From the NCBI GenBank assembly GCA_017458335.1, contig JAFTFT010000004.1:1-64000 (forward strand): a DNA stretch of 64,000 nt. The letters run 5' to 3'. Below the pieces are notes generated by a model. That model was not told where the DNA came from, did no database searches, and saw only the letters and a program-made list of their open reading frames with translations. Within the stretch, counting starts at the first letter, position 1. Each line of letters starts with the position of its first letter. Made by a program: the position numbers and the translations under genes. Shown here one piece after another: positions 6,731-54,688 of this stretch. This DNA is from Oscillospiraceae bacterium. Its GTDB lineage: Bacteria > Bacillota > Clostridia > Oscillospirales > Oscillospiraceae.

Positions 6731-7573
6731 ATGGACATCCGTTATTCCACCGGTCCCAATGATGTCAAGCGCTATACCACCGAGGAACTTCGGAAGGAGT
6801 TCCTGATCACCGGCCTCTATCAGCCGGATACCGTCCAGGCCACCTACTCCCATGTCGACCGCATGGTCGTCCTCGGGATCATGCCGGTCCATGAAGTCCT
6901 CCCGATCGACAAGGGCATCGACGTCTGGGCCAACTTCGGCACCGAATACTTCCTGGAGCGCCGGGAAGCCGGTGTTTTCAACCTGGGCGGCCCGGGCTTC
7001 ATCCAGACGGATGAGGAGCGCTTCGAGCTTGGCTTCGAAGACTGCCTCTACATCACCAAGGGAACCAAAAAAGTCTGCTTCGGCAGCAAGGATCCGGAGA
7101 ATCCGGCCCGCTTCTACCTCGTTTCCGCCCCTGCCCACAAGGCCTGCAAGACGACCTTCCTGTCCTTCGCCGACGCCAACAAGCGCCCCTGCGGAGACGC
7201 CAAAACCTGCAACAAGCGTGTCATCAACCAGTTCATCCACCCGGACGTGCTGGAGACCTGCCAGCTCAGCATGGGCCTGACCCAGCTTGCTGAAGGAAGC
7301 ATCTGGAACACCATGCCCGCTCACACTCATGAGCGCAGGATGGAAGTCTATACCTACTTCAATATTCCGGAAGGCAACGTGGTCTTCCATATGATGGGCC
7401 AGCCGCAGGAAACCCGCCACATCGTGATGCAGAACTACGACGCGGTGATCTCGCCCTCCTGGTCAATCCATGCCGGCGCCGGCACCGCCGCCTATACCTT
7501 TATCTGGGCCATGGGCGGAGAGAATCAGGCCTTTGACGACATGGACAACATCGACATCCCCGACATGAGATAA
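6731..7573 (+). CDS. kduI: 5-keto-4-deoxyuronate isomerase
   Basis: 4-deoxy-L-threo-5-hexosulose-uronate ketol-isomerase, the first step in breakdown of the unsaturated uronates released from pectin or glycosaminoglycans. The 280-residue length fits the family. The cupin zinc site is intact: H198 and H200 in PAHTHERRMEVY, E205 and H247, the numbering known for the E. coli enzyme. ATG 6731 follows AAAAGGAG. The last 33 bases reappear as a diverged copy just past the downstream hairpin. The product feeds KduD, KdgK and Eda in the next 4 kb. Confidence 0.96.
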   Translation: MDIRYSTGPNDVKRYTTEELRKEFLITGLYQPDTVQATYSHVDRMVVLGIMPVHEVLPIDKGIDVWANFGTEYFLERREAGVFNLGGPGFIQTDEERFELGFEDCLYITKGTKKVCFGSKDPENPARFYLVSAPAHKACKTTFLSFADANKRPCGDAKTCNKRVINQFIHPDVLETCQLSMGLTQLAEGSIWNTMPAHTHERRMEVYTYFNIPEGNVVFHMMGQPQETRHIVMQNYDAVISPSWSIHAGAGTAAYTFIWAMGGENQAFDDMDNIDIPDMR

Positions 7574-7587
7574 ACGTTCCCGAAAAG

Positions 7588-7617
7588 CACAACCACCCGC
7601 TGACGCGGGTGGCTGTG
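7588..7617. terminator. strong hairpin between kduI and the convergent gene
   Basis: CACAACCACCCGC (7588-7600) and GCGGGTGGCTGTG (7605-7617) pair, with one A/C mismatch, around a TGAC loop. On the minus strand the stem is followed by CTTTTC, so it best serves the gene at 7664-8344. On the plus strand no U-tract follows. Confidence 0.6.
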
Positions 7618-7624
7618 AGAGGGA

Positions 7625-7656
7625 ATGAACAACATCGATATCCCGGTATGAGATAA
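7625..7656 (+). repeat. diverged duplicate of the kduI 3' end
   Basis: These 32 bases align with the last 33 bases of kduI (7541-7573, offset 84): 28 identities, one deleted C, all four substitutions transitions. The stop-codon end (ATGAGATAA) is kept. The hairpin at 7588-7617 separates gene end and copy. Three other genes in the window show the same arrangement. Confidence 0.8.
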
Positions 7657-7663
7657 GCCCGGG

Positions 7664-8344
7664 TCAGATCAGTCCCTTGATTTTCAGCATCGGCGAGGGC
7701 CGGAAGATGTGAAGATAGTTTTGCAGGTCCTCATCCTTTACCTTCTGATAATCCTCCTTGATGATGCAGTAGTCCATCAGATAAAGATAGAGACAGACCT
7801 CGAAAGGGGAAGCGAGAAAGGCGGGGACAAAGTCCGTCTGAATCAGAAAGAGGGGAAGGGAACTCTGCAGCAGCGGGGAGAGACGCTTCTCAATCCACTT
7901 GTTGCCATAGACGATGTGAAGCTCCGGCGGAAGACCGGGCATGGCGCAGGCCATGATGTTCCGGTCCGATTCCGGCAGCGCGGTTTCGGGAAACTCCGGA
8001 TGGCTGTGGCAGACGGACTCATGAAAACTGAGCCGGCCGCTGCGGCTGCGTTTGAAGCGCTTCGGCACGAAGACGACGCGTTTGCCGCGCTTGACCTCCT
8101 GGTAATACCAGTCGGCCATCTTCGCCTGATCCAGGTGAAAATCAAAATCCAGACCGCCGTAGTCACAGTGAATTACCACGACGGAGTCAGAATCGAGAGG
8201 GAAGTATTCCTCCTCGCTTACACTCGCGGGCTCCAGCAGCGCGTTCCAGCCGCGGCGGAAATCCGGATAATACTTCCGGTCACGGATGGCATTGTCCTGA
8301 TAAAGCGCTTCGAGCTTCTGAAAGGCTTCCTGGTTTCGGGTCAT
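7664..8344 (-). CDS. hypothetical protein, 226 residues
   Basis: I do not recognise the family. The protein is soluble, with no signal peptide, rich in aromatic and basic residues (KRGKRVVFVPKRFKRSRSGR) with an HSHPE segment in the middle and a hydrophobic stretch at LASPFEVCLYLYLMDY. The start at 8344 follows GGGAGG at a good distance and is preferred to an ATG seven codons upstream. It is transcribed against the surrounding sugar-acid genes from its own strong promoter and ends at the hairpin it shares with kduI. It is therefore an independent unit inserted between kduI and eda. Confidence 0.75.
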   Translation of the reverse strand: MTRNQEAFQKLEALYQDNAIRDRKYYPDFRRGWNALLEPASVSEEEYFPLDSDSVVVIHCDYGGLDFDFHLDQAKMADWYYQEVKRGKRVVFVPKRFKRSRSGRLSFHESVCHSHPEFPETALPESDRNIMACAMPGLPPELHIVYGNKWIEKRLSPLLQSSLPLFLIQTDFVPAFLASPFEVCLYLYLMDYCIIKEDYQKVKDEDLQNYLHIFRPSPMLKIKGLI

Positions 8345-8404
8345 CGGTTTTCCTCCCTGCGTCAATCAGTCGGGAATCATGGCAGAGCCAATGCTTCCGA
8401 CAGA

Positions 8405-8433
8405 ATTATAGCGAATCATTTCATAAAGTGCAA
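8405..8433 (-). promoter_or_regulatory. sigma-A promoter of the minus-strand hypothetical gene
   Basis: On the minus strand, TTGCAC (8433-8428), a 17-base spacer and TATAAT (8410-8405). It lies 60 bases ahead of the start codon at 8344. No equally good plus-strand promoter was seen for eda in this gap. Confidence 0.75.
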
Positions 8434-8466
8434 GTTTATAAAAGTTTTGAAAAGGAGTGTTCTAAC

Positions 8467-9423
8467 ATGGATGTATTAAGCAGACTGGCGGCCGCGGGCA
8501 TCGTTCCCGTCGTCGTTCTGGACAAGGCCGAGGACGCGGTCCCGACCGCGCGCGCAATGCTCGCCGGCGGGATCGATGTCATGGAGATCACCTTCCGCAC
8601 CGCGGCCGCGGCGGATTCGATCCGTGCGGTATCGAAGGAAGTTCCCGAGATGCTGGTCGGTGCCGGTACCGTCATCAACCTCGAGCAGTGCAAGCTGGCG
8701 GTTGACTGCGGCGCCAAGTTCATCGTCTCCCCCGGCTATGACGAGGAGACCGTGGCCTGGTGCGTGGACAACGGCGTTGCCGTGACGCCCGGCTGTGTCA
8801 CCCCCACCGAGATCATGATGGCCAAGAAGCACGACCTCAAGGTTCTGAAGTTCTTCCCGGCCAACGTCTACGGCGGCCTGAAAGCCCTGAAGAGTCTCTC
8901 CGGCCCCTTCCCCGGAACCAAGTTCATCCCGACCGGCGGCGTCAGCAATGAAAACATCGCCGAGTTCATCTCCTCCCCGATCATCCATGCGGTCGGCGGC
9001 AGCTGGACCGTTCCCAAGAAGGACATCTCTGAAGGCAACTTTGAGAAAGTCACCCAGCTCTGCGCAGAGGCCCGCAAGGCCGCGATGGGCTTTGAAGTCG
9101 TGCACGTCGGCATCAACAGCGCCGACGCCGACACCGCCATGGACATCGCCGAAGCGTTCCAGAACGCCTTTGACTTTACGGTGAAGCCGGGCAATTCCTC
9201 CAACTTTGCCGGAACCGGCGTCGAAGTGATGAAGAGCCAGTACCTCGGCACAAACGGCCACATTGCCGTCCGCACCAACAGCATGGCTGTTGCCATCGGT
9301 GAGCTCGAGAAGCGCGGCTTTGAAGTCGACATGAGCACGGCCAAGTACAAGGGCGACCGTCTGAATGCCGTCTACCTGAAGAACGAGATCGGCGGATTTG
9401 CCGTCCATCTTCTTCAGAAATAA
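8467..9423 (+). CDS. eda: KDPG/KHG aldolase with C-terminal VOC-like domain
   Basis: 2-keto-3-deoxy-6-phosphogluconate aldolase, splitting KDPG into pyruvate and glyceraldehyde 3-phosphate. Residues 1-205 form the class I aldolase barrel: general base E40 in VMEITFRT, Schiff-base lysine K128 in LKFFPAN, phosphate site PTGGV near 156-160. Residues ~207-318 are an added domain ([15 protein letters not shown], then FAGTGVEVM and GHIAVRTNS) with the look of a glyoxalase/bleomycin-resistance (VOC) fold. Standard Eda is about 205-215 residues. ATG 8467 follows AAAAGGAG. A triloop hairpin separates it from kdgK. Confidence 0.93.
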
Positions 9424-9438
9424 GAAACGTAACTACGG

Positions 9439-9465
9439 CCCGCTCCCGCCGGCGGCGGGAGCGGG
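9439..9465 (+). terminator. U-less triloop hairpin after eda
   Basis: CCCGCTCCCGCC (9439-9450), loop GGC, GGCGGGAGCGGG (9454-9465), a perfect 12-base stem with no U-tract. Its CCCGCC/GGCGGG core is shared with hairpins at 11.4, 22.7, 22.8 and 54.6 kb. The region after it was examined for a copy of the eda end, and only an unconvincing A-rich match was found. Confidence 0.6.
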
Positions 9466-9497
9466 GGACATTCAAAATGAAAATGGAGGAAACTGTT

Positions 9498-10526
9498 ATG
9501 AAATTCCTGACCTTCGGCGAAATCATGCTCCGTCTTAAATCCCCCGGTTTGGAGAGATTCTTTCAGAGCCCGATGCTTGAGGCCACCTTCGGCGGCGGCG
9601 AGGCGAACGTAGCGGTCTCTCTGGCCAACTATGACCAGGATGTGGCCTTTCTGACCGTCCTGCCGAAGAACGTCATCGCGGACGAGTGCGTGAAAGAACT
9701 GCGCAGGTTCGGCGTGGATACCAGCCGCATTGTCCGTTCAGACAAGGGCCGTCTCGGCATCTATTATCTCGAGACCGGAGCCAACGCCCGCCCGAGCAAG
9801 GTCGTCTACGACCGCGCCGGATCCTCCATCGCCGTTGCCGCACCCGGCGACATCGACTGGGACAAGGCTTTTGAAGGCGTCGAGTGGTTCCACATCACCG
9901 GCATCACCCCGGCCATCTCCGAGAGCGCGAAGGAGCTCAGCCTTGAGTCCGTGAAGGAAGCCAAGAAGCGCGGCATCACGGTCTCCTGCGACCTGAACTT
10001 CCGCAAGAACCTCTGGAAATACGGCGTGCGTGCAGCCGAGGTCATGAGAGAGCTGGCCAATTACGTGGATGTGGCCATCGCCAACGAGGAAGATGTGCAA
10101 AAGTCCCTGGAGATCACCACCGATGTGATCGTGGAATCCGGCGAGCTGGACCGTGCCAAGTACAAAGCCCTCGGCGACAAGGTCCTGGCCGCCTATCCCA
10201 ATATGAAGATGATCGCCATCACGCTGCGCGAGAGCAAGAGCGCCGACTGGAACGGCTGGGCAGCCTGCCTGAACGACCGCGAGCACTTCTATGAGTCCAA
10301 GCGCTATGAGATCCGCGACATCGTGGATCGCGTGGGCGGCGGCGACAGCTTCGGCGGCGGCCTGCTCTACGGTCTGACCCACTATGAGGATCACCAGAAG
10401 GCTCTGGAGTTCGCGGTTGCGGCCTCCTGCTTGAAGCACAGCATCCCCGGCGACTTCAACCGCGTGACCGTCGATGAGGTCGAGAAACTCATGGGCGGCG
10501 ACGGCAGCGGCCGCGTGCAGAGATAA
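9498..10526 (+). CDS. kdgK: 2-keto-3-deoxygluconate kinase
   Basis: PfkB-family sugar kinase that phosphorylates KDG to KDPG, the substrate of the preceding aldolase. The 342-residue protein opens with [13 protein letters not shown] and the [12 protein letters not shown] substrate-binding segment. The anion-hole/catalytic motif is [13 protein letters not shown] with D283 as base. ATG 9498 follows AATGGAGG, and an in-frame ATG at 9477 precedes the ribosome site and is rejected. The eda-kdgK-kduD order gives three consecutive steps of uronate breakdown. Confidence 0.94.
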
Positions 10527-10573
10527 AAACAACTAACACAAATATAAGAATCTGATTCGGAGGAATATGCATC

Positions 10574-11371
10574 ATGGACATGAAAGCCTTTTCCCTGGAG
10601 GGTAAAGTCGCACTGATTACCGGCGCCGCCTACGGCATCGGTTTCGCCATCGCCGAGGCCTTTGCGGCCGCCGGCGCAAAGATCTGCTTCAACTGCCGCG
10701 GCGAGCATCACATGGAAGCCGCCATGAAGGCCTATGCCGAAAAGGGCATTGACGCCCACGGCTACTTCTGCGACGTGACGAAGGAAGACGAAGTCAAGGA
10801 AATGGTCGCGAAGATCGAGGAAGAAGTCGGCGTCATCGACATCCTCGTGAACAACGCGGGCATCATCAAGCGCATCCCGATGATCGAGATGAGCGCGGAG
10901 GACTTCCGCCAGGTCGTCGACATTGACCTGAACGCCCCCTTCATCGTTTCCAAGGCCGTCATCCCCGGCATGATCAAGAAGGGCCACGGCAAGATCATCA
11001 ACATCTGCTCCATGATGTCCGAGCTCGGCCGTGAGACCGTCTCCGCCTATGCGGCGGCCAAGGGCGGCCTGAAGATGCTGACCCGCAACATCTGCTCCGA
11101 GTACGGCGAGTACAACATCCAGTGCAACGGCATCGGACCCGGCTACATTGCCACGCCGCAGACCGCTCCGTTGCGTGAGCGCCAGCCGGACGGCAGCCGC
11201 CATCCCTTTGATCAGTTCATCGTCGCGAAGACGCCTGCAGCCCGCTGGGGTACCCCGGAAGACCTGATGGGACCGGCCGTGTTCCTGGCCTCCGACGCCT
11301 CCAACTTCGTCAACGGCCACATTCTCTATGTGGACGGCGGCATCCTGGCCTACATCGGCAAGCAGCCGTAA
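10574..11371 (+). CDS. kduD: short-chain dehydrogenase, KduD/gluconate 5-dehydrogenase type
   Basis: NAD(P)-dependent SDR of 265 residues, predicted to reduce 2,5-diketo-3-deoxygluconate to KDG or to act as a gluconate 5-dehydrogenase. Cofactor motif TGAAYGIG is at 16-23, NNAG at 93-96, and the catalytic triad is S146, Y159, K163 (YAAAKGG). The family-typical ATPQTAPLRERQPDG segment points to the KduD/Ga5DH branch. Context with kduI, kdgK and eda favours KduD. The ribosome site is CGGAGG. Its 3' end has a diverged copy after the next hairpin. Confidence 0.9.
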   Translation: MDMKAFSLEGKVALITGAAYGIGFAIAEAFAAAGAKICFNCRGEHHMEAAMKAYAEKGIDAHGYFCDVTKEDEVKEMVAKIEEEVGVIDILVNNAGIIKRIPMIEMSAEDFRQVVDIDLNAPFIVSKAVIPGMIKKGHGKIINICSMMSELGRETVSAYAAAKGGLKMLTRNICSEYGEYNIQCNGIGPGYIATPQTAPLRERQPDGSRHPFDQFIVAKTPAARWGTPEDLMGPAVFLASDASNFVNGHILYVDGGILAYIGKQP

Positions 11372-11376
11372 AGAAA

Positions 11377-11407
11377 CCGTACTCCCCGCCGGAGGCGGGG
11401 AGTACGG
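11377..11407 (+). terminator. U-less triloop hairpin after kduD
   Basis: Perfect 14-base stem CCGTACTCCCCGCC (11377-11390) and GGCGGGGAGTACGG (11394-11407) around a GGA triloop. It begins five bases after the stop codon. No U-tract follows, and instead the copied kduD tail starts 16 bases later. Confidence 0.65.
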
Positions 11408-11423
11408 GGCCAACCCTGCATCT

Positions 11424-11462
11424 GACGGCAGTATCCTGGCCTGTAACGGCAGGCAACCGCAA
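11424..11462 (+). repeat. diverged duplicate of the kduD 3' end
   Basis: The 39 bases align without gaps to 11333-11371 (offset 91) with 31 identities; seven of eight differences are transitions. The original TAA has become CAA, so the copy is not a usable gene end. It lies between the hairpin and the alcohol dehydrogenase gene. Confidence 0.78.
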
Positions 11463-11503
11463 TCCTATTCCACTACCTTGAACAGAAAGAAGGCACAAAC
11501 CTG

Positions 11504-12535
11504 ATGAAAGCAGCTGTATTGAAAGACTGGTTCCAGCTTGAGCTCACCGACGTTCCGATGCCGGTGCCGGGTCCGGATGAGGCACTGATCAAAGTCCGCT
11601 ACGGCGGCGTCTGCGGCTCGGACATGGTCGTCTACCGGCACAAGCACATGACCGCCACGATTCCCCGCGTGCTCTGCCATGAAATTCTCGGCACGATTGA
11701 GACTCTGCCGGAAGGCTATGACGGACCCTTCCATCTGGGCCAGCGGGTTCTGATGAACCCGGTTGTCTCCTGCGGTCACTGCTCCGCCTGCAAGCGCGGT
11801 CTCGGCCATGTGTGTGAGAACCTGGAACTGCTCGGCATCCACCGGGACGGCGGCTTCGCCGAATACACCAAGGTCGGCGTGGAGAAGCTCGTCGCCATTC
11901 CAGACGACTTCCCCGATGAGGTCGCCATTCTGGGCGAACCCTTCGCCGTCGGCTATCATGTCATGGTCCGCAGCCAGCTTCAGAAGGGCGACACCGTGTT
12001 CATTTCGGGCGGTGCGGCGGTCGGCCTGTATATCGCCATCTTCGCGAAGGCTTACGGCGCCGGCCGGGTCATCATTTCCGAGGTGAATGAGCCGCGCCGC
12101 CAGTTCGTCGAATCCATGGGGATCGAGACCATCAACCCCACCAAGACCGACCCCATGGATCTCATGCGCGAAGTCACCGGCGGCGGTGGATTTGACATGG
12201 TCTACGATACCTCCGGAGCCAAATCCGCGACCCTGCAGATGCCCGATCTTACCCGCTGCGGCGGAAAGATGATGAGCCTGAACCTCTCCGGTGACATCTA
12301 TGAATTCATCATCGGCAAGGTTTCCTTCAAGGAAATCACGCTCATCGGCAACCGCCTGTATTCTCAGGAGGACTTCGAAGGCGGCGTCCGTTTCGTCGAA
12401 GAGAACTGGCGCAAGCTGCATCTGGACCGCATGGTCAGCGATATTCTCCCGCTCAGCGACATCGACAAGGCCATCAACATGATGATCAACGGCGACAACC
12501 TCTGCAAGATCATCATTGACTGCCAGAAGGTCTGA
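11504..12535 (+). CDS. zinc-dependent alcohol dehydrogenase (polyol/sugar-acid dehydrogenase type)
   Basis: Medium-chain dehydrogenase of 343 residues. Catalytic zinc ligands C37 and H59-E60 (CHE) and the structural zinc cluster C90, C93, C96, C104 are complete. A Rossmann domain starts near 165 (FISGGAAVGLYIA), where the usual GxGxxG is relaxed to GGAAVG. Members of this group oxidise L-idonate, L-threonine, sorbitol or L-galactonate. A hexonate or polyol substrate fits the neighbours but cannot be chosen by sequence. The ribosome site is AGAAAGAAGG, and a terminator-like hairpin follows. Confidence 0.85.
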   Translation: MKAAVLKDWFQLELTDVPMPVPGPDEALIKVRYGGVCGSDMVVYRHKHMTATIPRVLCHEILGTIETLPEGYDGPFHLGQRVLMNPVVSCGHCSACKRGLGHVCENLELLGIHRDGGFAEYTKVGVEKLVAIPDDFPDEVAILGEPFAVGYHVMVRSQLQKGDTVFISGGAAVGLYIAIFAKAYGAGRVIISEVNEPRRQFVESMGIETINPTKTDPMDLMREVTGGGGFDMVYDTSGAKSATLQMPDLTRCGGKMMSLNLSGDIYEFIIGKVSFKEITLIGNRLYSQEDFEGGVRFVEENWRKLHLDRMVSDILPLSDIDKAINMMINGDNLCKIIIDCQKV

Positions 12536-12553
12536 GCGAATCCCGGAAAAAGG

Positions 12554-12581
12554 GGAGCTGTGCTCCGCACAGCTCCTCTTT
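12554..12581 (+). terminator. terminator-like hairpin after the alcohol dehydrogenase
   Basis: GGAGCTGTGC, triloop TCC, GCACAGCTCC (12554-12576), then TCTTT. A short U-rich tail makes it a better terminator than most hairpins in this block. Confidence 0.6.
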
Positions 12582-12615
12582 GCGCATTCTGAAACAACAG
12601 GAGGAACAAACACCC

Positions 12616-13545
12616 ATGTCACAGAAACTTTATCCCTCGGCCCATATTCTGGAGATGTTCATGCCCTATCTGCATGATGAAAAACGGCTGATTGAGGTTC
12701 TGAACAGGATTGTGGAGAAGGACTTCTACCGGAACGTAGAGCTGCCTTCCTTCCCGACGAAGGAGCACCGGGATACCGTACGGAAGATCCTGAAGGACAA
12801 CGATCTGACCGCCATCACCTTTGTCGCGCCTTTTTTAAATGAGCAGAAGATGTCTCTCTGCGACCTGGATGACAGACGGCGGGAAGAAGTCCTGGATTTC
12901 CTGAAGATGCACGCGGACTTCGCTGCGGAGAGCGGATACACGACCTTCGGCGTCCCCAGCGGACCCTATCCAGGAGACGAATATCACGATGAGGCCATGG
13001 CGGCTCAGGCGGATACCCTTGCCCGGATCGCAGATTACGCGGCCGCTCTCGGCATGAACTGCAGCATCGAGCCGCTGGACCGCTATGCCCACAAGAAAGC
13101 CCTCATCGGACCGATGGATGAGGTGGTGGAATGGTTCCGGCCGCTGCACGAGGCGCATCCGAACCTCTTTCTGCACTGGGACAGCGCGCACGAACGCCTG
13201 GGCGGCCTCGGCATCTTCAACACCCTGGAGATGGCGGCGCCGTTTCTGAGCCAGATCCACCTCTGCGACTGCATCGACGATCCGACGCACCCCTGCTTCG
13301 GCGATCTTCACATGGATCCGGCTGAAGCGCCCGACTGGAAGACAGAAGGCTTCCTGACACCGGAGATCGGGGCCGAGATCATCCGCCGCGCGGCGTCGTT
13401 TGACAAACCGGAAGGAGTGAAACGCTTCTGGGTGTCCATCGAAGTGCTCGGTCACAAGGGAGACAACCTCTGGCGCAAGGAGCGGATCGCGAGAGAGTTT
13501 CTGACCCGCTGCTGGGAGCTCTCCGGCGTGGAAATCAGCCGCTGA
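12616..13545 (+). CDS. sugar phosphate isomerase/epimerase-like TIM-barrel protein
   Basis: A 309-residue protein of the xylose isomerase-like/AP endonuclease 2 superfamily. Likely metal-site residues are in SIEPLDRYAHKKA, LHWDSAHERLGG and SQIHLCDC, spaced as in sugar epimerases. ATG 12616 follows ACAGGAGG. It stands between the alcohol dehydrogenase and the pentulose kinase, so isomerisation of a sugar or sugar acid intermediate is likely. The exact reaction is not recognisable. Confidence 0.8.
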   Translation: MSQKLYPSAHILEMFMPYLHDEKRLIEVLNRIVEKDFYRNVELPSFPTKEHRDTVRKILKDNDLTAITFVAPFLNEQKMSLCDLDDRRREEVLDFLKMHADFAAESGYTTFGVPSGPYPGDEYHDEAMAAQADTLARIADYAAALGMNCSIEPLDRYAHKKALIGPMDEVVEWFRPLHEAHPNLFLHWDSAHERLGGLGIFNTLEMAAPFLSQIHLCDCIDDPTHPCFGDLHMDPAEAPDWKTEGFLTPEIGAEIIRRAASFDKPEGVKRFWVSIEVLGHKGDNLWRKERIAREFLTRCWELSGVEISR

Positions 13546-13564
13546 GCCGGGACGGAGAGACGAG

Positions 13565-15103
13565 ATGCATTATTTTATCGGTCTGGATAACGGCGGGACG
13601 GCGACCAAAGCCGCGCTCTTTGACAGAAACGGAAAAGAGATCGGCAAGGCGGTTGTCGCGACGGCTTCCATCACCCCGAGGCCCGGCTTTGTGGAGCGGG
13701 ATATGGAGGAGATGTGGGAGGCCAACTGCAGCGTGATCTCCCGGGTTCTCCGTGAAACAGGCGTCGACGCGAAGGAGGTGGCGGGAATCGGAATCGCCGG
13801 ACACGGGAAGGGCCTGTATCTCTGGGGCAAAGACGGAAAACCCGCCCGCAACGGCATCATCTCCACCGACAACCGCGCATGGGCTTATCCGAAGCATTGG
13901 GCGGAGGACGGAACCGAAGAAAAGGCCTTTGCCCGTACCGCACAGCATATTCTGGCCTGCCAGCCGGTTTCGCTGCTGGCCTGGCTGCGGGATAACGAGC
14001 CGGAGAGCTACCGGAATATCCGCTGGGTTTTTGAGTGCAAGGATTATGTCCGCTTCCGCCTGACGGGGGAAGCAAAGGCGGAGATCACGGACTACTCGGG
14101 AGCCAGCCTTATGAACCTCCATACCCGGGACTATGACGGGGAACTGCTGAAACTCTTCGGCCTGGAAGAGATTGCCCAGGCGCTTCCGCCGCTCTGCAGG
14201 GCGACGGAGATCTGCGGCCGGGTGACGGAAGAGGCGGCGGAGCGCTGCGGCCTGCTCCCGGGAACCCCGGTGGTGGGCGGCATGTTCGATATCAACGCCT
14301 GCGCCCTGGCAGCCGGCGTGACCGATCCGGAGCGGCTCTGCATGATCGCGGGAACCTGGAGCATCAACGAATACGTGCGCAGGGAGCCGGTCACAGACGG
14401 AAGCGTCCTGATGAATTCCCTCTTCTGCCTGCCGGAATACTATCTCATCGAAGAATCGAGCCCGACCTCGGCGGGCAACAACGAGTGGTTCGTGCGGGAG
14501 CTGCTTCCGGAGCTCGGCGCGGAATGCAAAGTCCGGGGCGAGAGCGTATACGAAGTACTGAACCGCTGGGTGGATGAGATTTCACCCAAAGAATTTGTGC
14601 CGGTGTTTCTGCCGTTTCTGATGGCGTCGAACGTCCATCCGAACGCGAAAGGAAGCTTTGTCGGCATGTCGCTGAACCACAGCAGGAAACACCTGGCACG
14701 GAGTGTATATGAGGGCATCGCCTTCTGCCACCGCATGCATCTGGAGCGGCTGCTGAAAAGCCGGAGCGAACTGCCGGTGTGCATCCGTCTGGCCGGCGGT
14801 GCTGCACGCTCAGCCGTCTGGGCGCAGATGTTTGCCGATGTGATGAAGCTTCCGGTGGAGACCGTCGAAGCGAACGAGACCGGCGCGCTGGGCTGCGCCA
14901 TCGCGGCCGCCGTGGCGACCGGGGAGTATCCGGATCTGGAGAGCGCCGTAGAGAATATGACCAGTGTCTCCAGACGCTTTGTGCCGAATGCGGCATACAC
15001 GGAACTCTACGACAGAAAATACAGGCTGTACTGCAGAACCATTGACTGCCTGGACGGACTCTGGTCGGAGATGCAGGCGATGATCGAGGAGGAAGCGAGA
15101 TGA
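13565..15103 (+). CDS. FGGY-family carbohydrate kinase, L-xylulose kinase type
   Basis: The 512-residue protein has the FGGY N-terminal domain (FIGLDNGGTATKAALFD, with the catalytic Asp region DNRAW) and the C-terminal ATP site (VRLAGGAARSAVWAQMFAD-like segment, here IRLAGGAARSAVW). Overall pattern resembles LyxK/YiaP L-xylulose kinases. Its stop overlaps the start of the 3-epimerase by four bases (ATGA), so the two are translationally coupled, which fits phosphorylation of L-xylulose and then 3-epimerisation. L-fuculose or rhamnulose kinase activity is less likely with these neighbours. Confidence 0.87.
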   Translation: MHYFIGLDNGGTATKAALFDRNGKEIGKAVVATASITPRPGFVERDMEEMWEANCSVISRVLRETGVDAKEVAGIGIAGHGKGLYLWGKDGKPARNGIISTDNRAWAYPKHWAEDGTEEKAFARTAQHILACQPVSLLAWLRDNEPESYRNIRWVFECKDYVRFRLTGEAKAEITDYSGASLMNLHTRDYDGELLKLFGLEEIAQALPPLCRATEICGRVTEEAAERCGLLPGTPVVGGMFDINACALAAGVTDPERLCMIAGTWSINEYVRREPVTDGSVLMNSLFCLPEYYLIEESSPTSAGNNEWFVRELLPELGAECKVRGESVYEVLNRWVDEISPKEFVPVFLPFLMASNVHPNAKGSFVGMSLNHSRKHLARSVYEGIAFCHRMHLERLLKSRSELPVCIRLAGGAARSAVWAQMFADVMKLPVETVEANETGALGCAIAAAVATGEYPDLESAVENMTSVSRRFVPNAAYTELYDRKYRLYCRTIDCLDGLWSEMQAMIEEEAR

Positions 15104-15933
15104 AAAAGGCCTATTCTCTCGGCCTGTATGAGAAGGCCATGCCGGATGTCTCCTGGAAGGAAAAGCTGCAGATTGCAAAAGAAGCCGGCTACGACTTTGT
15201 GGAGATCAGCATCGATGCCACGGAGGCGCGGATCTCCCGCGTTTACAGTTCAAAGCAGGAGCGGCGGGACCTGGTGAACCTGTGCTATGATCTGGACATG
15301 CCGATCCGCACGCTCAATGCCAGCGCCCTGACCAAATACTCCCTCGGTAATCCCGATCCGGCGGTCTGCGCCAGAGGGATGGAGATCGCGGAGCGGTGCA
15401 TCGACCTGGCGGCGGATCTGGGCGTCCGGATCGTGATGATCCCGGGCTACGACGTGTATTACGAACCGCATACCGAAGAAACGGAACAGCGCTTCGTGAA
15501 GAATATCCGCGCGCTTACGCAGAGCGCGGCCTGCGCCGGTGTTCAGCTCGGCTTTGAGACCATGGAAAACGAGTTCATGAATACGGTGGAAAAAGGACTG
15601 CACTATATCGGACTTGTCAACTCCAATTACCTGAAGCTCTATCCCGACATCGGCAACACCACCAATGCCGCCGTACTGTACGGCACGGACCCCATTGAGG
15701 ACCTGAAAAAAGGCCGGGGACAGCTGCTGGCCCTGCACCTGAAGGAAACCTGCCCGGGGCATTACCGGGAAATCCCTTACGGGACGGGACACGTGGACTT
15801 TGAAGCCGCGGTGAAAACGGCCTGGGAGCTGGGCGTGCGCCGATATGTGACGGAATTCTGGTACAAGGACGGCGGAGAGACGCCGAAGGAGGTCTGCGCC
15901 CGATTCACGGAGCTGCTGGACCGGCAGGCATGA
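15100..15933 (+). CDS. L-ribulose/L-xylulose-5-phosphate 3-epimerase (UlaE/SgbU type)
   Basis: A 277-residue TIM-barrel epimerase converting L-xylulose 5-phosphate to L-ribulose 5-phosphate. Typical UlaE/SgbU strings are YSLGLYEKAMP at the start, FVEISIDATEARISR, GFETMENEFMNTV (metal Glu), LYPDIGN (metal Asp) and ALHLKETCPG (His). Together with the preceding kinase and araD at 1.5 kb it completes a path to D-xylulose 5-phosphate and the pentose phosphate pathway. Confidence 0.93.
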   Translation: MKKAYSLGLYEKAMPDVSWKEKLQIAKEAGYDFVEISIDATEARISRVYSSKQERRDLVNLCYDLDMPIRTLNASALTKYSLGNPDPAVCARGMEIAERCIDLAADLGVRIVMIPGYDVYYEPHTEETEQRFVKNIRALTQSAACAGVQLGFETMENEFMNTVEKGLHYIGLVNSNYLKLYPDIGNTTNAAVLYGTDPIEDLKKGRGQLLALHLKETCPGHYREIPYGTGHVDFEAAVKTAWELGVRRYVTEFWYKDGGETPKEVCARFTELLDRQA

Positions 15934-22018: not shown

Positions 22019-22702
22019 ATGTACTACTCCGATATCTTCTATCTTCTGACGATAATTCTGTTCTTCGTGAGTATGATTTGCTCCGGAATTGTGAGGAGCC
22101 GCTTCAACCGGTATTCGAAAGACCGGACTTATAACGGCATGACCGGGGCCATGGCGGCGGAGCGCATCCTGCGGGCGAATGGTATTACAGATGTGACGAT
22201 CGTGCAGACACAGGGAACACTTACCGATAACTATAACCCCGCCAATCACACGCTGAACCTGTCACAGCCCGTATACGGTGGACAGAACGTCTCTGCGGTG
22301 GCCGTGGCGGCGCATGAATGCGGCCATGCGATCCAGCATGCCCAGGCCTATCCGCTGCTGATGCTGCGCAAGGCGCTTGTCCCGATCTGCAACATCGGGT
22401 CCATCGGCTCATATATCGCGATCCTGTTGGGGATCTTCTTCTCCCGGAGCGGACTGATTACCCTGGGAGCGGTTCTGTTCTCGGGCATCGTGCTCTTCAA
22501 CCTGGTGACGCTGCCGGTGGAGGTGGACGCATCCCGGAGGGCGATGGCGGAAGTGGACCGGCTCGGCCTGCTCACCGATGAAGAGAGAATCGGCGGACGC
22601 AAGGTCCTGTTCGCAGCCGGGATGACCTACTTCATCTCGCTGATGACCTCCATCGTCCAACTGCTGCGCCTGCTGAGCATTGCAAACAGCCGGAGAAGAT
22701 AA
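22019..22702 (+). CDS. yugP: YugP-family zinc metallopeptidase
   Basis: Neutral zinc peptidase with membrane helices (Zn_peptidase_2, YugP), 227 residues. H99-E100-C-G-H103 binds zinc and E168 in LPVEVDASRRA is the probable third ligand. Helices lie at ~5-24, ~125-143 and ~147-168, and near the C-terminus. ATG 22019 (MYYSD) is chosen because AGAGGG ends six bases before it; the ATG at 22013 would touch the ribosome site. Its last 44 bases occur again as a diverged copy 98 bases downstream. Confidence 0.9.
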   Translation: MYYSDIFYLLTIILFFVSMICSGIVRSRFNRYSKDRTYNGMTGAMAAERILRANGITDVTIVQTQGTLTDNYNPANHTLNLSQPVYGGQNVSAVAVAAHECGHAIQHAQAYPLLMLRKALVPICNIGSIGSYIAILLGIFFSRSGLITLGAVLFSGIVLFNLVTLPVEVDASRRAMAEVDRLGLLTDEERIGGRKVLFAAGMTYFISLMTSIVQLLRLLSIANSRRR

Positions 22703-22713
22703 CAGATAAGCGT

Positions 22714-22740
22714 CAGCACCCCGCCTCCGGCGGGGTGCTG
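22714..22740 (+). terminator. U-less triloop hairpin after yugP
   Basis: CAGCACCCCGCC (22714-22725), loop TCC, GGCGGGGTGCTG (22729-22740): a perfect 12-base stem. No U-tract follows, and the copied yugP tail starts 18 bases later. Confidence 0.65.
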
Positions 22741-22758
22741 AGAAGTCTATAGGACCGG

Positions 22759-22802
22759 CTGCTGCGCCTGTTGAGCATTGCAGACTGCAGGAGAAGATAA
22801 CA
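22759..22802 (+). repeat. diverged duplicate of the yugP 3' end
   Basis: The 44 bases match 22661-22704 (offset 98) at 40 positions without gaps, including the TAA stop and the three bases after it. A second, related hairpin follows this copy, so here the whole unit of gene end plus hairpin seems to have been duplicated in tandem. Confidence 0.88.
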
Positions 22803-22821: not shown

Positions 22822-22850
22822 ATCAGCCCCCCGCCGAAGGCGGGGGCTGA
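22822..22850. terminator. hairpin between yugP and the convergent oxidoreductase gene
   Basis: TCAGCCCCCCGCC, loop GAA, GGCGGGGGCTGA, with one extra C on the left arm. Same CCCGCC/GGCGGG core as the hairpin at 22714. It lies 31 bases past the end of the minus-strand gene and may serve both directions. Confidence 0.55.
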
Positions 22851-32538: not shown

Positions 32539-32713
32539 GTAATAAAAGTAGAGGCGCGTATTGCCAAGAGTAGCACAGCTTAAGACGGAGACCGGCAATC
32601 TCTGAGCTGTGAGAAAGGGGCATACGCCGAAGGGGGACGCAGCCTGAGTCCAGCCTGGGCATATGCAGAAGATGCATATGACTGTCGCATCATTGCGGAG
32701 AGCTAATTATTAC
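32539..32713 (+). promoter_or_regulatory. lysine riboswitch (L box)
   Basis: Senses lysine in the nascent leader of the transporter gene. Conserved L-box blocks are present in order: GTAGAGGCGCG (32548-32558), AAGAGTA, AAAGGGGCATACGCCGAAGG, GCAGCC...TGGGC, a CATATGC/GCATATG hairpin, ACTGTCGC and GCGGAGAGCTA (32695-32705). P1 is closed by GTAATAA (32539-32545) with TTATTAC (32707-32713). A strong terminator follows at 32786, giving lysine-induced transcription termination. Confidence 0.93.
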
Positions 32714-45665: not shown

Positions 45666-45715
45666 GACGATACAGCTGCGGAGAAAGGGGAGAACAACCC
45701 TTCCCGCAGAGAGAA

Positions 45716-46963: not shown

Positions 46964-46996
46964 AAGCGGAATTCTCCCTTCAGATACCGAAACGGG

Positions 46997-47746
46997 CTAC
47001 AACGCTTCCATCAGATGGACGACGTCAGAATAACGTTTTTTCGGGTTGGTCATGGTACAGCGGCTGATTACCCGGCCGAGGCGGCCGCCGGCGAGCTTGC
47101 GGCTGGGATGGTTGCCGGTGACCATGACGTTCAGCATCACACCCAGGGAATAGAGGTCGGCGCGGCCGTCGGTCCGGGAGAGACCGTGCTGCTCCGGGGC
47201 GGCATAGCCCGGCGAGCCGAGAATGACCGTGTCATGTCCCTCCCCGGAAGCTTCATCAGGAGAGACCTTCATAAACCTGGAGGCGCTGAAATCGATGAGT
47301 ACCGCCCGGTCCCCGTGTATCAGTACGTTTGAGGGTTTGACATCGCGGTGGACAAGACCCAGACCATGCATTACATACAGTGCCTGACAGATCTGAAGGG
47401 CGATTTCCCGGGCCTTTTTCTCCGGAAGCAGTGAACAGTCCACAAGATCCTGCAATGTGTCGCCCGGAATGAACTCCTCCAGTACGAGAAGACGGCCGTC
47501 TTCCTCCGCAAGTTCATAGATTTCCGGCAGATGTGCACAGCGTACCGACATCAGACTGCGATAGACCGCGGCATCACCCGGCAGATCCAGCAGAACAAAG
47601 CGCTGCCCGCTCCCGTTGTGGCGCAGGAGCGAGATGCGGGAATCGGCTTTCTCTTCAAAGCGGCTGGCTTCCGTGAACTCCCCGGAAAGCATGCGCCGGA
47701 AATAGGCATAATAGGACTCACCCGGAATGAGTTCTTCGTCCGCCAT
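46997..47746 (-). CDS. Ser/Thr protein kinase-like protein lacking the beta3 lysine
   Basis: 249 residues, soluble. Catalytic loop HRDVKPSN (133-140), metal site D152 in IDFSASR (DFS in place of DFG) and APE (183-185) are present. At the N-lobe, however, the stretch that normally reads VAxK is FVLLDLPG (50-57) and has no lysine, and no glycine-rich loop is apparent. It may be an atypical kinase using another lysine, or a signalling pseudokinase. ATG follows GGAGG. First gene of a unit with the beta-helix protein and divergent from an HTH gene. Confidence 0.85.
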   Translation of the reverse strand: MADEELIPGESYYAYFRRMLSGEFTEASRFEEKADSRISLLRHNGSGQRFVLLDLPGDAAVYRSLMSVRCAHLPEIYELAEEDGRLLVLEEFIPGDTLQDLVDCSLLPEKKAREIALQICQALYVMHGLGLVHRDVKPSNVLIHGDRAVLIDFSASRFMKVSPDEASGEGHDTVILGSPGYAAPEQHGLSRTDGRADLYSLGVMLNVMVTGNHPSRKLAGGRLGRVISRCTMTNPKKRYSDVVHLMEAL

Positions 47747-47818
47747 GGTTTTGGTACCTCCTCCCGAAAGTGAGCTCTGCCTGTTTCTGCCCAGGGGCTT
47801 TCACGATCAAACTTCGAG

Positions 47819-47832
47819 GATCGAAACCGATC
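47819..47832. promoter_or_regulatory. inverted repeat in the kinase/HTH divergent region, possible operator
   Basis: GATCG-AAAC-CGATC (47819-47832), with further GATCGAAA-like copies just around it (CGATCAAAC at 47803, GATCGAAAA at 47830). It lies in the 222-base space between the divergent starts, so the HTH protein could bind here. A TATAAT for the plus-strand gene is at 47874-47879, but its -35 is weak. Confidence 0.4.
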
Positions 47833-47968
47833 GAAAATAAAAAACAACAGGTGTAATCTGTTCGTTTTCGTGCTATAATCTCATCGGCAGCATTATAACA
47901 ACAGAAACCTCATCGACGCAAGAGGTTTTCATGTTTTTGAACCCCGATCGGAAACAGAGGATAAGAAA

Positions 47969-48409
47969 ATGGTTTCATCTATAGGAAAAAAGAGTACTAC
48001 GGAGCTGCTCCGGGACCTCAGAAAATACAAGGAGTTTGACAGCTATCTCAAGCATGACGCGGATTACCTGCGGCAGACCGTATTCACAGAGAAACTCAAG
48101 GAACTGCTCAAGAGAGATGACAGAACCCGCATCGAGATAGCCCAGGAGGCCTGTATCAGTGAAATCTATCTCTATCAGATCTGTACGGGGAAGCGGGTAC
48201 CGAGCAGGGAACGGGTGCTGTGCCTGTGCCTCGTCCTGCATCCGAAACTGGAAGAGGTACAGGAGCTGCTGCGCAGCTGCGGCCATGCACCGCTGCATCC
48301 GCGGGACCGCAGGGACGCACAGATTATTCACGCGCTGCTGCACAACGGCACACTGTATCAGACAGACGACGCGCTGATTGAAATGGGGGAAAAATCCCTG
48401 CTGAAATAG
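47969..48409 (+). CDS. helix-turn-helix protein
   Basis: 146 residues. A helix-turn-helix of the XRE/Cro kind is visible at ~53-78 (TRIEIAQEACISEIYLYQIC), with KRVPSRERVLCLCLVLH after it, where XRE proteins have the stabilising helices. Both flanks are charged helices. It is divergent from the kinase gene and probably functions with it, a pairing I believe recurs in Clostridia (from memory). No clear AGGAGG; the start is set by the long open frame and the GAGGATAAG upstream. Confidence 0.78.
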   Translation: MVSSIGKKSTTELLRDLRKYKEFDSYLKHDADYLRQTVFTEKLKELLKRDDRTRIEIAQEACISEIYLYQICTGKRVPSRERVLCLCLVLHPKLEEVQELLRSCGHAPLHPRDRRDAQIIHALLHNGTLYQTDDALIEMGEKSLLK

Positions 48410-48611
48410 TATGCCGGAGGAGATCTCCAGGCGGGAAGAATTGAACGATCTGAATTCGGCCCCGATTTATTCTGCATATATGCTTAACCCATAGGGATGC
48501 CTTTCTTTTCGGAATGGAAAGACTGTGATTGACGGCAACGAAATATAAGAAAACGCCGATTATTTCTGAAATCCAACGGCAAAAATTGTTTAATTTTTAC
48601 ATCTCAAACTG

Positions 48612-48640
48612 TTTACAATTTGCGAAATAAATGATAAACT
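48612..48640 (+). promoter_or_regulatory. probable promoter of the PFOR gene
   Basis: TTTACA (48612-48617), 17 bases, TAAACT (48635-48640), about 68 bases before the ATG. The rest of the 298-base gap 48410-48707 is AT-rich, and no gene, RNA or clear terminator was recognised there. Confidence 0.5.
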
Positions 48641-48707
48641 ATAAACTGTCTCTTGGCGGGCATTTGCCGGCCGGAAAAGAATTTTATTGACTGGAGTGAA
48701 AGTTAGA

Positions 48708-52364
<3,657 letters not shown>

Positions 52365-52409
52365 TCCCCGTACCGCTGCCGGAAGGCGCATCAGACAGCA
52401 TAAAACCCC

Positions 52410-52443
52410 ACAGGAGCTGCGAGAAATCGCAGCTCCTGTTTTA
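52410..52443 (+). terminator. intrinsic terminator of nifJ
   Basis: ACAGGAGCTGCGA, GAAA tetraloop, TCGCAGCTCCTGT (52410-52439), then TTTT. Confidence 0.92.
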
Positions 52444-52485
52444 CTCCGGCATGCTGTCCAGATCTCAGGATTCAGAAAAAAGACC

Positions 52486-52514
52486 TTGCAATTTATGGGA
52501 GGCGGTTGTATAAT
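52486..52514 (+). promoter_or_regulatory. sigma-A promoter of the pyrR-uraA operon
   Basis: TTGCAA (52486-52491), 17-base spacer, perfect TATAAT (52509-52514). Confidence 0.82.
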
Positions 52515-52553
52515 GCCGCCGAAAAGAGATTTTTAAGCAGCGGTACCGAGATG

Positions 52554-52638
52554 CCGGCAAAATCTTTGATATCGAAAGGCGCATGCGGTGCGCCCGGTTC
52601 GGAATGCAGGATCTTGCCGGAAACGGCAGGATTTTTTT
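52554..52638 (+). promoter_or_regulatory. pyr attenuator leader (antiterminator/terminator switch)
   Basis: The terminator is ATCTTGCCG-GAAA-CGGCAGGAT (52611-52632) with T7. The upstream segment CCGGCAAAATC (52554-52564) can pair with GATCTTGCCGG (52610-52620), with one mismatch, so it can form an antiterminator that breaks the terminator. The spacer holds a possible PyrR-binding hairpin near 52580-52605. Uracil-nucleotide-loaded PyrR made by the next gene is expected to favour termination. The canonical PyrR loop was not confirmed. Confidence 0.75.
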
Positions 52639-52657
52639 GTTGAGAGGGATCAAAAGC

Positions 52658-53200
52658 ATGCATCAGAAAGCCCAGATCATGGATGAAAACGCAATGAAGC
52701 GTGCGCTGATGCGCCTTTCTCATGAGATCGTGGAAAAGAACAAGGGTGCGGCCAACCTCGTTTTCGTCGGAATCCGCCGTCGCGGCGAACCGATTGCCGA
52801 GCTCGTGCGTGAAAACGTGGCGGTCATCGAGGGGATCCGTGTCCCCTGCGGCAGCATCGATATCAAGTTCTACCGGGATGATCTCTCGACGGTGTCGGAG
52901 AGCCCGGAGATCCGGAAAGCTTCCCTTCCGTTTGATGTGAACGGCAGGGATGTTGTTTTGTTTGACGATGTGCTCTATACCGGCAGAACGGCGCGGGCGG
53001 CCATCGAGGCCGTGTTCAGCTGCGGCCGGCCGAAGACCATCCAGCTTGCGATTTTGGTGGACCGCGGGCATCGGGAGCTCCCGATCCGGGCGGATTTCGT
53101 CGGAAAAAACCTGCCTACTTCGCGCAGCGAGCTGGTGGAGGTCCGCCTCCCGGAATACGACGGTGAGACCGGCGTATACCTGATGGACCTCGAATCCTAG
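52658..53200 (+). CDS. pyrR: bifunctional pyr operon regulator/uracil phosphoribosyltransferase
   Basis: 180 residues, standard PyrR length. PRPP-binding loop VLFDDVLYTGRT (100-111), IVEKNKGAANLVFVGIRRRG in the N-terminal part, and the PyrR-type VDRGHRELPIRADFVGKN. It binds UMP/UTP and pyr mRNA. ATG 52658 follows GAGAGGG; an earlier in-frame start would lie within the attenuator and is rejected. Next gene is a uracil permease, so this operon handles uracil uptake and salvage. Confidence 0.95.
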   Translation: MHQKAQIMDENAMKRALMRLSHEIVEKNKGAANLVFVGIRRRGEPIAELVRENVAVIEGIRVPCGSIDIKFYRDDLSTVSESPEIRKASLPFDVNGRDVVLFDDVLYTGRTARAAIEAVFSCGRPKTIQLAILVDRGHRELPIRADFVGKNLPTSRSELVEVRLPEYDGETGVYLMDLES

Positions 53201-53289
53201 CGGTAGCAAACGGCAGAGAGCGGTATCCCGCGGAAGGCCGTTTTCTATAGAAAATGCAAGCATACAGAAAAGAGAAGGAGAGAAAAAGT

Positions 53290-54606
53290 ATGAATCTTGT
53301 CTACGGTATCAAAGACAGGCCGAAGTTTGGACAGGTTGTCCTCTTTGCTCTGCAGCAGCTGCTCGCCATCATGGCGGCGACCATCGCGGTTCCGGCGGTC
53401 GTCGGCAACGGAATGAGCGCTTCGGCAGCCCTGTTCGGCGCCGGCGTCGGCACCATCGTGTATCTGCTCTTCACCAGAAGCTCCAGCCCGGTGTTTCTCG
53501 GCTCTTCCTTCGCCTTCATCGGTTCCATGTTCTCCGCCTTCGGCGGCGCGGCTTCCGTCTCCATCGGCTACGCCGGCCTGATCCTCGGCGCCCTGATCGC
53601 AGGCCTGGTGTATGTCGTCATCGCCCTGATCGTAAAGTTCTGCGGCGTCAAGTGGATCGACAAGCTGATGCCCCCGGTCATCATCGGACCCACTGTTGCC
53701 ATCATCGGCCTGAGCCTCGCGGGCAACGCCATCGGTGATCTGATGCGCAGCAACGTGGAAGGGGGCTCCGTCTATGTCGCGCTGATCTGCGGCCTGGTGA
53801 CGCTGGCGGTGACCATGCTCTGCTCCACCTACGGCAAGCACATGATCAAGCTGATCCCCTTCATCATCGGTATCCTGGCAGGCTATCTTGTCGCTTCCAT
53901 CTTTGCCCTGATCGGCGAGAACACCGGAAACGACGCGCTCGTCGTCATCAACTATGAAGCGCTGCACCGTGTCGGCTCCTTCGTCTCGCTGCCGGAGTTC
54001 TCCTTTACCAAGGCGGACTGGAGCGGCGTGACCAGCTCCTATCTGCTGACCGTTTTCGTGGCCTATGCGCCGGTGGCCTTTGTCGTCTTCGCCGAGCATC
54101 TGGCCGACCACAAGAACCTCAGCTCCATCGTCGGCGTAGACCTTCTGGAGAATCCCGGCCTGACCAACACTCTGCTGGGCGACGGCATCGGCTCCTTTGT
54201 CGGCGCTTTCTTCGGCGGCTGCCCCAACACCACCTACGGCGAGTCCATCGCCACCGTCGCTATCACCCGCAACGCCTCCTCTATCAGCATCTGGGGCGCG
54301 GCCATCGCCTGCATCATTTTCTCTCTGCTGACCCCGCTTGTGGCCTTCCTCGAGACCATTCCCAGCTGTGTCATGGGCGGCGTCTGCGTGGCTCTTTACG
54401 GCTTCATCTCCGCCAGCGGCCTGAAGATGCTGCAGCCGGTTGACCTCAACAAGAACCGCAACCTCTTCGTCGCCTCCGTCATCTTCATCGTCGGCGTCGG
54501 CGGCATGGTCGTATCTTTCGGCGCGGTGGAGATCCGCACGGTTGCCTGTGCGCTGATCCTCGGTATACTGACCAACCTCATGCTCTCCGGGGAAAAGGAC
54601 GAGTAA
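53290..54606 (+). CDS. uraA: uracil/xanthine permease, UraA family
   Basis: 438 residues with about 12-14 membrane helices of the nucleobase:cation symporter-2 fold. Motifs: QQLLAIMAATIAVPAVVG, SSPVFLGSSFAFIG (substrate region), and the NCS2 signature GGCPNTTYGESIATVA. Cotranscription with pyrR points to uracil. ATG 53290 follows AAGGAGAG; an in-frame ATG at 53254 is rejected. The last 27 bases are duplicated after a hairpin. Confidence 0.94.
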   Translation: MNLVYGIKDRPKFGQVVLFALQQLLAIMAATIAVPAVVGNGMSASAALFGAGVGTIVYLLFTRSSSPVFLGSSFAFIGSMFSAFGGAASVSIGYAGLILGALIAGLVYVVIALIVKFCGVKWIDKLMPPVIIGPTVAIIGLSLAGNAIGDLMRSNVEGGSVYVALICGLVTLAVTMLCSTYGKHMIKLIPFIIGILAGYLVASIFALIGENTGNDALVVINYEALHRVGSFVSLPEFSFTKADWSGVTSSYLLTVFVAYAPVAFVVFAEHLADHKNLSSIVGVDLLENPGLTNTLLGDGIGSFVGAFFGGCPNTTYGESIATVAITRNASSISIWGAAIACIIFSLLTPLVAFLETIPSCVMGGVCVALYGFISASGLKMLQPVDLNKNRNLFVASVIFIVGVGGMVVSFGAVEIRTVACALILGILTNLMLSGEKDE

Positions 54607-54616
54607 AAACTGAAAG

Positions 54617-54651
54617 CAGTACCGTCCCCGCCTCCGGCGGGGGCAGTACTG
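54617..54651 (+). terminator. triloop hairpin after uraA
   Basis: CAGTAC/GTACTG outer pairs and a CCCCGCC-TCC-GGCGGGG inner stem. It is followed by an A-run, not a U-run. Same core as the hairpins at 9.4, 11.4 and 22.7 kb. Confidence 0.6.
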
Positions 54652-54661
54652 AAAAAAACCA

Positions 54662-54688
54662 ATGCTCTCCGGAGAGAAGGACGAGTAA
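54662..54688 (+). repeat. diverged duplicate of the uraA 3' end
   Basis: 27 bases identical at 25 positions to 54580-54606 (offset 82), both differences being transitions, and the TAA stop kept. The copy reads as a tiny MLSGEKDE frame just before the MATE gene. Confidence 0.85.

Follow-up and report, generated by a model that had tools for sequence, protein, structure and literature searches.

Small palindromic sequences are known from both bacterial and mitochondrial genomes. The superfamilies of repetitive extragenic palindromic (REP) sequences carry a GTAG or CGTC tetranucleotide tag at one foot of the palindrome (PMC3733652), and one report on TnpA-REP describes the mechanism by which REP sequences spread as still to be elucidated (PMC8266576). 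Yeast mitochondrial GC clusters, such as the 42-base GC42, are mobile GC-rich palindromes that are present or absent between relatives and are subject to rapid substitution, merger, and shuffling (PMC4478555), and the double-hairpin elements of Allomyces are mentioned as mobile (PMC7218506). Here we examine GC-rich hairpins in the genome of an Oscillospiraceae bacterium (GenBank assembly GCA_017458335.1, referred to as G000), starting from a stretch of 64,000 nucleotides (contig JAFTFT010000004.1, positions 1 to 64,000 of the forward strand; "the window"). A first-pass annotation had reported that four unrelated genes in the window, kduI, kduD, yugP, and uraA, are each followed by a hairpin and then by a diverged copy of their own 3' end. 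Comparison with same-genus genomes (G015, G018, G053, G072, G078, G093, and G101) shows that hairpin and flank copy behave as a block, which at several loci is either complete or missing altogether, and which then grows in tandem. The explanation that we consider probable, without holding it firmly, is the insertion of a small palindrome beside genes with an unusually long target duplication, followed by tandem growth.

All four window cases are as described, with a GC-rich hairpin separating tail from copy in each. Gene names are those of the annotation or were read off translations of open frames, genes were called by our own script, and loci carry L numbers; the features given here lie on the forward strand. 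The tail of yugP, with its stop and two further bases (22661 to 22704), is followed by the hairpin TCAGCACCCCGCC-TCC-GGCGGGGTGCTGA (22713 to 22741) and by a copy identical at 40 of 44 positions (22759 to 22802). The second hairpin that had been reported behind this copy, TCAGCCCCCCGCC-GAA-GGCGGGGGCTGA, is present at 22823 to 22850 (coordinates counted from the sequence rows) and differs from the first in its loop. At kduD, the final 39 coding bases including the stop (11333 to 11371) precede a perfect 14-bp hairpin, CCGTACTCCCCGCC-GGA-GGCGGGGAGTACGG (11377 to 11407), and a diverged copy matching at 31 of 39 positions (11424 to 11462). The final 33 coding bases of kduI, again with the stop (7541 to 7573), are separated from their diverged copy (7625 to 7656) by a spacer (7574 to 7624) containing the hairpin ACCACCCG-CTGA-CGCGGGTGG with weaker outer arms, CGTTCCC/GGGAATG; both hairpin and copy are common to G093. 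The uraA tail including its stop (54580 to 54606), an imperfect hairpin, CAGTACCGTCCCCGCC-TCC-GGCGGGGGCAGTACTG (54617 to 54651), and a copy identical at 25 of 27 positions (54662 to 54688) complete the set. An unguided repeat search recovered yugP (44 nt, 91%, offset 98), kduD (39 nt, 79%, offset 91), and uraA (27 nt, 93%, offset 82), and gapped alignment recovered the kduI pair (one gap, offset 84; 28 of 33 columns including the gap). Recounting the substitutions at the four loci gave 15 transitions and 3 transversions, the excess that had been claimed; over 21 loci genome-wide the excess is milder, with 66 transitions and 31 transversions.

The four genes are part of a genome-wide pattern, as the annotation had suspected. 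The last 60 bases of each gene plus 8 were compared with the next 192 bases, with tails swapped between genes as the control. Scores of at least 38 were reached by 8 of 332 gene ends in the window and 20 further stretches, versus 0.0 from swapped tails. In a larger sample of 858,208 bases (the window and 43 stretches, with 708 gene ends and 683 starts), 11 gene ends reached this score versus 0.0, 4 of them being the window loci, and 12 versus 0.6 reached a score of 34; these controls rule out chance similarity. A GC-rich hairpin lies between tail and copy in 11 of 11, ten flagged by the script's pattern and one, at uvrB (L175; CCACCCCCTCCGGGGGGGG), missed by it and read by eye. The baseline is far lower, with a hairpin (perfect stem of at least 7, loop of 3 to 5) within 60 nt of the stop at just 59 of the 708 gene ends. 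Among 1,080 gene ends from other Clostridia (80 loci kept of 593 candidates), a single one scored at least 34, in a GC-rich tandem stretch that has no family hairpin, in agreement with the claim that such copies are not a normal feature of terminators.

Describing the copies as a property of 3' ends proved too narrow. Although no gene start among the 683 scored at least 38 (0.1 expected) and the 2 that reached 34 (0.3 expected) have no hairpin, leuS (L131) has a copy of its start with a hairpin. At tsf (L174), the copied start lies upstream with a hairpin (17 of 18 bases, score 32), and hairpins with copied tails lie downstream. Four further cases are intergenic (L155, L167, L202, and L207). 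Given the 5' copies at leuS and tsf, the 3' bias may reflect survival and detection rather than specificity for 3' ends.

The hairpins form a recognizable family whose usual core is CCCGCC-loop-GGCGGG, with stems of 8 to 19 bp. G000 contains 99 exact cores (CCCGCC-N3-5-GGCGGG) versus 3 for the reversed pattern, the highest count over 102 genomes of the genus, followed by G072 (51), G101 (37, control 13), G078 (29), G015 (27), and G018 (21, control 27); the remaining 96 have at most 18 each. At least three species of gut bacteria are involved; with near-identical copies in three (G000, G072, and G015) and the highest density in G000, the process is, as judged from sequence, lineage specific. 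Judged by Rny, the nearest genomes that carry a name are metagenome-assembled ones from Oscillospiraceae and Clostridiales, one of them from red deer according to its title. Of 64 sampled family hairpins, 58 are intergenic; the left and right flanks are alike at a score of at least 34 in 15 of these 58, with 0.27 expected. Among the matches listed, about half of the 99, at least 8 pairs of cores have a spacing of 68 to 110 bases. Like flanks also occur at 7 of the 43 hairpins in the unbiased stretches that have an innermost six bases other than CCCGCC; one of the 7 (L014) is no true case, being a pair of tRNA genes. Fainter copies were seen by eye at L144 (argJ), L147, L151, L155, and L002 (hydA). 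A family hairpin within the window, CCCGCTCCCGCC-GGC-GGCGGGAGCGGG at 9439 to 9465, lies behind a gene ending at 9423 and has no visible tail copy.

Outside the core the family is heterogeneous. Among 65 hairpins, conservation is slight beyond about 7 bases from the core, and most outer stems differ between loci and also between orthologs, so the stems seem to change fast. A fixed mobile element was rejected on the basis of this lack of consensus. Fourteen hairpin pairs share at least 8 outer-stem bases, 2 of them inside one array; shuffling predicts 0.46, but for a single arm where the count takes in both, and up to about 2 would be a fair expectation. This excess suggests that some hairpins have dispersed. 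A subgroup with the arm TATATCTC (L008:4552, L145:1512, L154:1532, L157:1583, and L169:11211) shares at least 8 bases; some of its members, flanked on one side by GAAATGCA, are a long way from any stop and resemble a longer dispersed element. In G000, the hairpins of eno and rny carry T-runs and look like plain terminators.

Alleles lacking both hairpin and copy provide evidence that the two arrive together. Alignments with G093 and G072 were tallied by eye. Of 17 loci with a copy in G000 and an ortholog in G093, 3 have the copy in G093 (kduI, tsf, and hydA) and 14 have none; 12 of the 17 G000 copies are strong (score of at least 43), 2 of which are matched in G093, and 5 are weak (L151, cdsA, argJ, hydA, and L155; scores of 20 to 32, by eye). 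At three loci with strong copies, kduD, uvrB, and L147a, and at argJ with its weak copy (score 28), G093 has neither hairpin nor copy, and the next gene begins 4 to 23 bases after the stop (21 bases at kduD). It therefore appears that hairpin and copy arrived together at kduD, uvrB, and L147a, and argJ agrees, with a weaker copy. Among 18 loci with an ortholog in G072, a copy is found at yugP (degenerate, by eye), asd, nagB, L147a, and uvrB and not at the other 13; in this tally the weak G000 copies include L147b and L177 as well. The sequences of argJ and L150 are uninterrupted in G072. At L150 the G072 sequence is the preinsertion allele, and in G000 a 29-base palindrome is present and about 47 bases are doubled. 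Because the presence of the copy varies among these orthologs, the events are of different ages. The rny copy is absent from the 24 relatives listed (a 25th, L055, has no homologous end) and from the 12 relatives of a second comparison. The yugP orthologs in the first 61 genus genomes (26 matches, of which a motif filter displayed 8 loci, one being the window's own) are too distant to compare. We also asked whether the hairpin could have been made by copying local sequence; this was rejected, as by eye the left arm is absent from the empty allele at kduD, uvrB, and L147a, save AGAAA at kduD. At tsf of G093 (L301), two short, close tail copies stand behind one hairpin, with no hairpin between them.

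The freshest event is at a permease gene of G015 (L219:1340-1600), where the order is tail, hairpin AACTCCCCCGCC-GTA-GGCGGGGGAGTT, a tail copy identical at 54 of 55 positions, and terminator AAAATCCCCGCC-GACC-GGCGGGGATTTT. The tail copies are nearly identical, but the two hairpins, AACTCCCCCGCC-GTA and AAATCCCCGCC-GACC, are unlike; by sequence, then, the first hairpin is new and was not duplicated along with the tail. Its 12-bp stem occurs once more in G015 without mismatch, beside a putative tuf gene, and that hairpin is a possible source. At the same locus, G000 and G093 have the terminator only, and G072 has a hairpin and an older copy (27 of 33).

Most arrays contain n hairpins in n + 1 flank copies, one hairpin per gap. 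Counted by eye, tails and hairpins number 4 and 3 at tsf and at L206 and L209 of G072, and 3 and 2 at L146, L006, L173, and L347 and at G072 uvrB, L147a, and L202. The period averages 88.9 bases (standard deviation, 7.5; range, 80 to 110) over 21 hand-picked loci, a set from which nagB (L004) fell out (21 of 22), its hairpin being missed by the pattern; an unguided scan that allowed 45 to 160 also gave 68 (L129) and 73 (L203 of G072), both outside this list. The repeated stretch is variable, spanning 27 to 59 bases at single-hairpin loci; in multiunit arrays its measured length takes in part of the spacer. Repeat and spacer lengths are anticorrelated (-0.87), partly since decay shifts bases between them, so the period is the sole robust measure. 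At L347 (1200-1480), four changes clustered within 12 bases, read as silent, set the tail of the gene itself apart from both copies, as though the end of the gene had been replaced later from another strain. The hairpin arrays at L167:16049-16330 (G000) and L207:1487-1670 (G072) are orthologous and intergenic, and each is, by eye, homogenized within its own genome.

We propose that short GC-rich palindromes were inserted beside genes in the G000 lineage, each insertion adding about 90 bases, made up of a 30- to 55-base piece with the palindrome and a repeat of the 30 to 60 bases alongside. Of the three ideas put forward in the annotation, a small element that copies its flank on insertion best fits the empty sites, the joint arrival, and a new hairpin unlike the old terminator. 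Widely staggered nicks might be filled in after the palindrome is joined, as in target-site duplication, or a replication fork might copy the hairpin in trans and restart about 90 bases back. We infer that the staggered-nick route would account for the n and n + 1 rule and the empty sites, and fork restart better for the steady period. Arrays later grow in tandem, one hairpin per gap. An insertion would persist wherever one of the two copies leaves the gene intact, so that gene tails would dominate the visible cases. A stronger formulation is that the bacterium possesses an undescribed insertion reaction, which joins short palindromes, possibly derived from terminators, doubles 30 to 60 target bases for a fixed net gain of about 90, and builds CRISPR-like arrays from ordinary gene ends. 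This we put forward tentatively and regard as somewhat doubtful.

Several observations weigh against insertion. No transposase, integrase, or source element was identified, and the differing outer stems provide no fixed mobile sequence. No case turned up in unbiased samples of 79 gene ends from G072 and 125 from G093, the loci outside G000 coming from a targeted search. The near-constant period is not predicted by a fixed element with a variable duplication. At L210 and L203 of G072, hairpins equal tails in number. At uraA, both G072 and G093 have a hairpin after the stop and no copy, and the hairpin between the rny tail and its copy matches the G093 terminator; a hairpin can thus precede the copy, as at these two genes. 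About 20 extra bases in the right flank of kduD have no placement. Lastly, an empty site by itself would fit loss in G093 as well as gain in G000. Gain is favored by argJ, where both relatives are empty, and by the fresh event in G015.

Some of these same observations are what would be expected of plain tandem duplication, in which tail and terminator are doubled at a stalled fork through slippage or unequal exchange and the second hairpin is lost or diverges later because palindromes are unstable. Full tandem units that include the hairpin occur at L210 of G072 (period 97, 3 units), at tsf in G000, and at L173 and L347; by eye, the copies at L151, hydA, and uraA may have a related or decayed hairpin behind them, and that at rny seems to extend into the hairpin's left half. 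The hairpin-only relatives of uraA fit as well. Duplication would create identical full units at birth, yet the G015 permease has nearly identical tails around two different hairpins; the empty kduD, uvrB, argJ, and L147a sites had no terminator to double; and the recent arrays at L347, L173, L202, L207, and uvrB of G072 end in a flank copy, with the unit's hairpin absent after it. The annotation's proposal of tandem duplication of gene end and hairpin thus holds for the later growth of arrays, with L210 and L203 of G072 also in accord with it, and fails for the origin of most pairs, given that most arrays lack the duplicated hairpin after the last copy. As a complete explanation we judge it unlikely.

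An RNA-mediated route seems less likely still. Here a reverse transcriptase would copy a terminator-bearing RNA end, and the complementary DNA would be joined beside a gene, target-primed synthesis yielding variable flank duplications. G000 does have two reverse transcriptase frames, one of 458 amino acids (L333) that is of the group II intron type and one of 377 amino acids (L337) that resembles those of phages or diversity-generating retroelements (types assigned by eye), and the inserted hairpins resemble terminators, the G015 insert sharing its 12-bp stem with the hairpin beside tuf. Reverse transcriptases are also present, however, in relatives with few core hairpins (G093, 3 matches; G053, 2), and the hairpins were not seen to come with extended transcript sequence. 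Selection for doubled 3' structures able to stabilize mRNA or end transcription, the annotation's remaining idea, would suit the 42 of 58 intergenic family hairpins that lie within 200 bases of a stop and the several copies that keep a stop codon; it finds no support, copies at gene starts (leuS and tsf) and between genes (L155, L167, L202, and L207) speak against it, and a terminator needs no copy of a coding tail, so we consider it very improbable. An artefact of assembly or chance similarity in this metagenome-assembled genome (44 contigs, 83.7% complete) can practically be dismissed, since the copies are mostly diverged rather than identical, swapped tails gave 0.0, and G093, a separate genome, has the hairpin and copy of kduI as well.

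Two other features of the window were recorded. Two 27-base direct repeats lie 56 bases apart around the start of the gene at 56223 (56171 to 56253); they are 74% alike and have no hairpin between them. A lysine riboswitch (RF00168, 92.7 bits) at 32541 to 32713 is the sole Rfam match above the gathering score in the window.

Insertion of a palindrome with a long target duplication, the reading we prefer, can be compared with several described systems. In diversity-generating retroelements, differences between copies are confined to template adenines; this system was rejected, as at the 60 mismatches between gene and copy over 14 loci the copy carries A 21 times, C 14, G 15, and T 10. The fixed short target duplication of miniature inverted-repeat transposable elements or insertion sequences was not found, the repeated stretch of single-hairpin loci being long and variable. 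For such elements conserved terminal inverted repeats outside the core would be expected; the 65 hairpins have little conservation there beyond about 7 bases, and the TATATCTC subgroup shares at least 8. Intrinsic terminators likewise have a GC stem downstream of a stop, but ordinary ones have no copy of the coding tail. CRISPR-type integration leaves n inserts in n + 1 direct repeats and doubles one repeat per insertion. The G000 arrays share this numerical pattern; their repeats, however, are locus specific and vary in length, and the inserts are palindromes (Cas1 was not searched for).

Yeast mitochondrial GC clusters are similar in size and mobility. According to one account (PMC4478555), they are flanked by direct repeats of AG or ACT, 2 to 3 bases versus 30 to 60 in G000, and GC42 stems have a reduced substitution rate, whereas outer stems of the G000 type differ between orthologs. 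The nearest bacterial kind is the REP element. Like REP sequences and bacterial interspersed mosaic elements, the G000 palindromes are short, GC-rich, and extragenic, number about 100 in the genome, often lie near gene ends, and sometimes form tandem groups. Identity with REP sequences and their REP-associated tyrosine transposases was rejected because G000 shows neither a foot tag nor an intact Y1 transposase. Among 65 G000 hairpins, the 8 nt next to the foot contain GTAG 0 times, CGTC once, and GGAG once (1, 2, and 1 in control stretches). The Y1 search of G000 gave one partial match, a 120-amino-acid frame with an internal stop, although in a genome 83.7% complete the gene may be missed; G072 has one intact Y1 match. 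A further difference is that insertion here doubles 30 to 60 flank bases.

Among the titles and abstract beginnings of the matches listed in the open-licence literature, none describes a bacterial hairpin that is followed by a copy of the gene tail. The way in which REP-like palindromes spread is still debated ground, and events of the G000 type leave readable scars, the doubled gene tail recording both the event and its age. Several loci have a known empty allele in a relative, and three species have near-identical copies, which makes the insertion reaction testable; if our reading is true, a gene's own end is copied to rebuild 3' untranslated regions. We place the process among the small palindromic mobile sequences, closest to REP elements among those of bacteria, with an insertion reaction that may itself be new.

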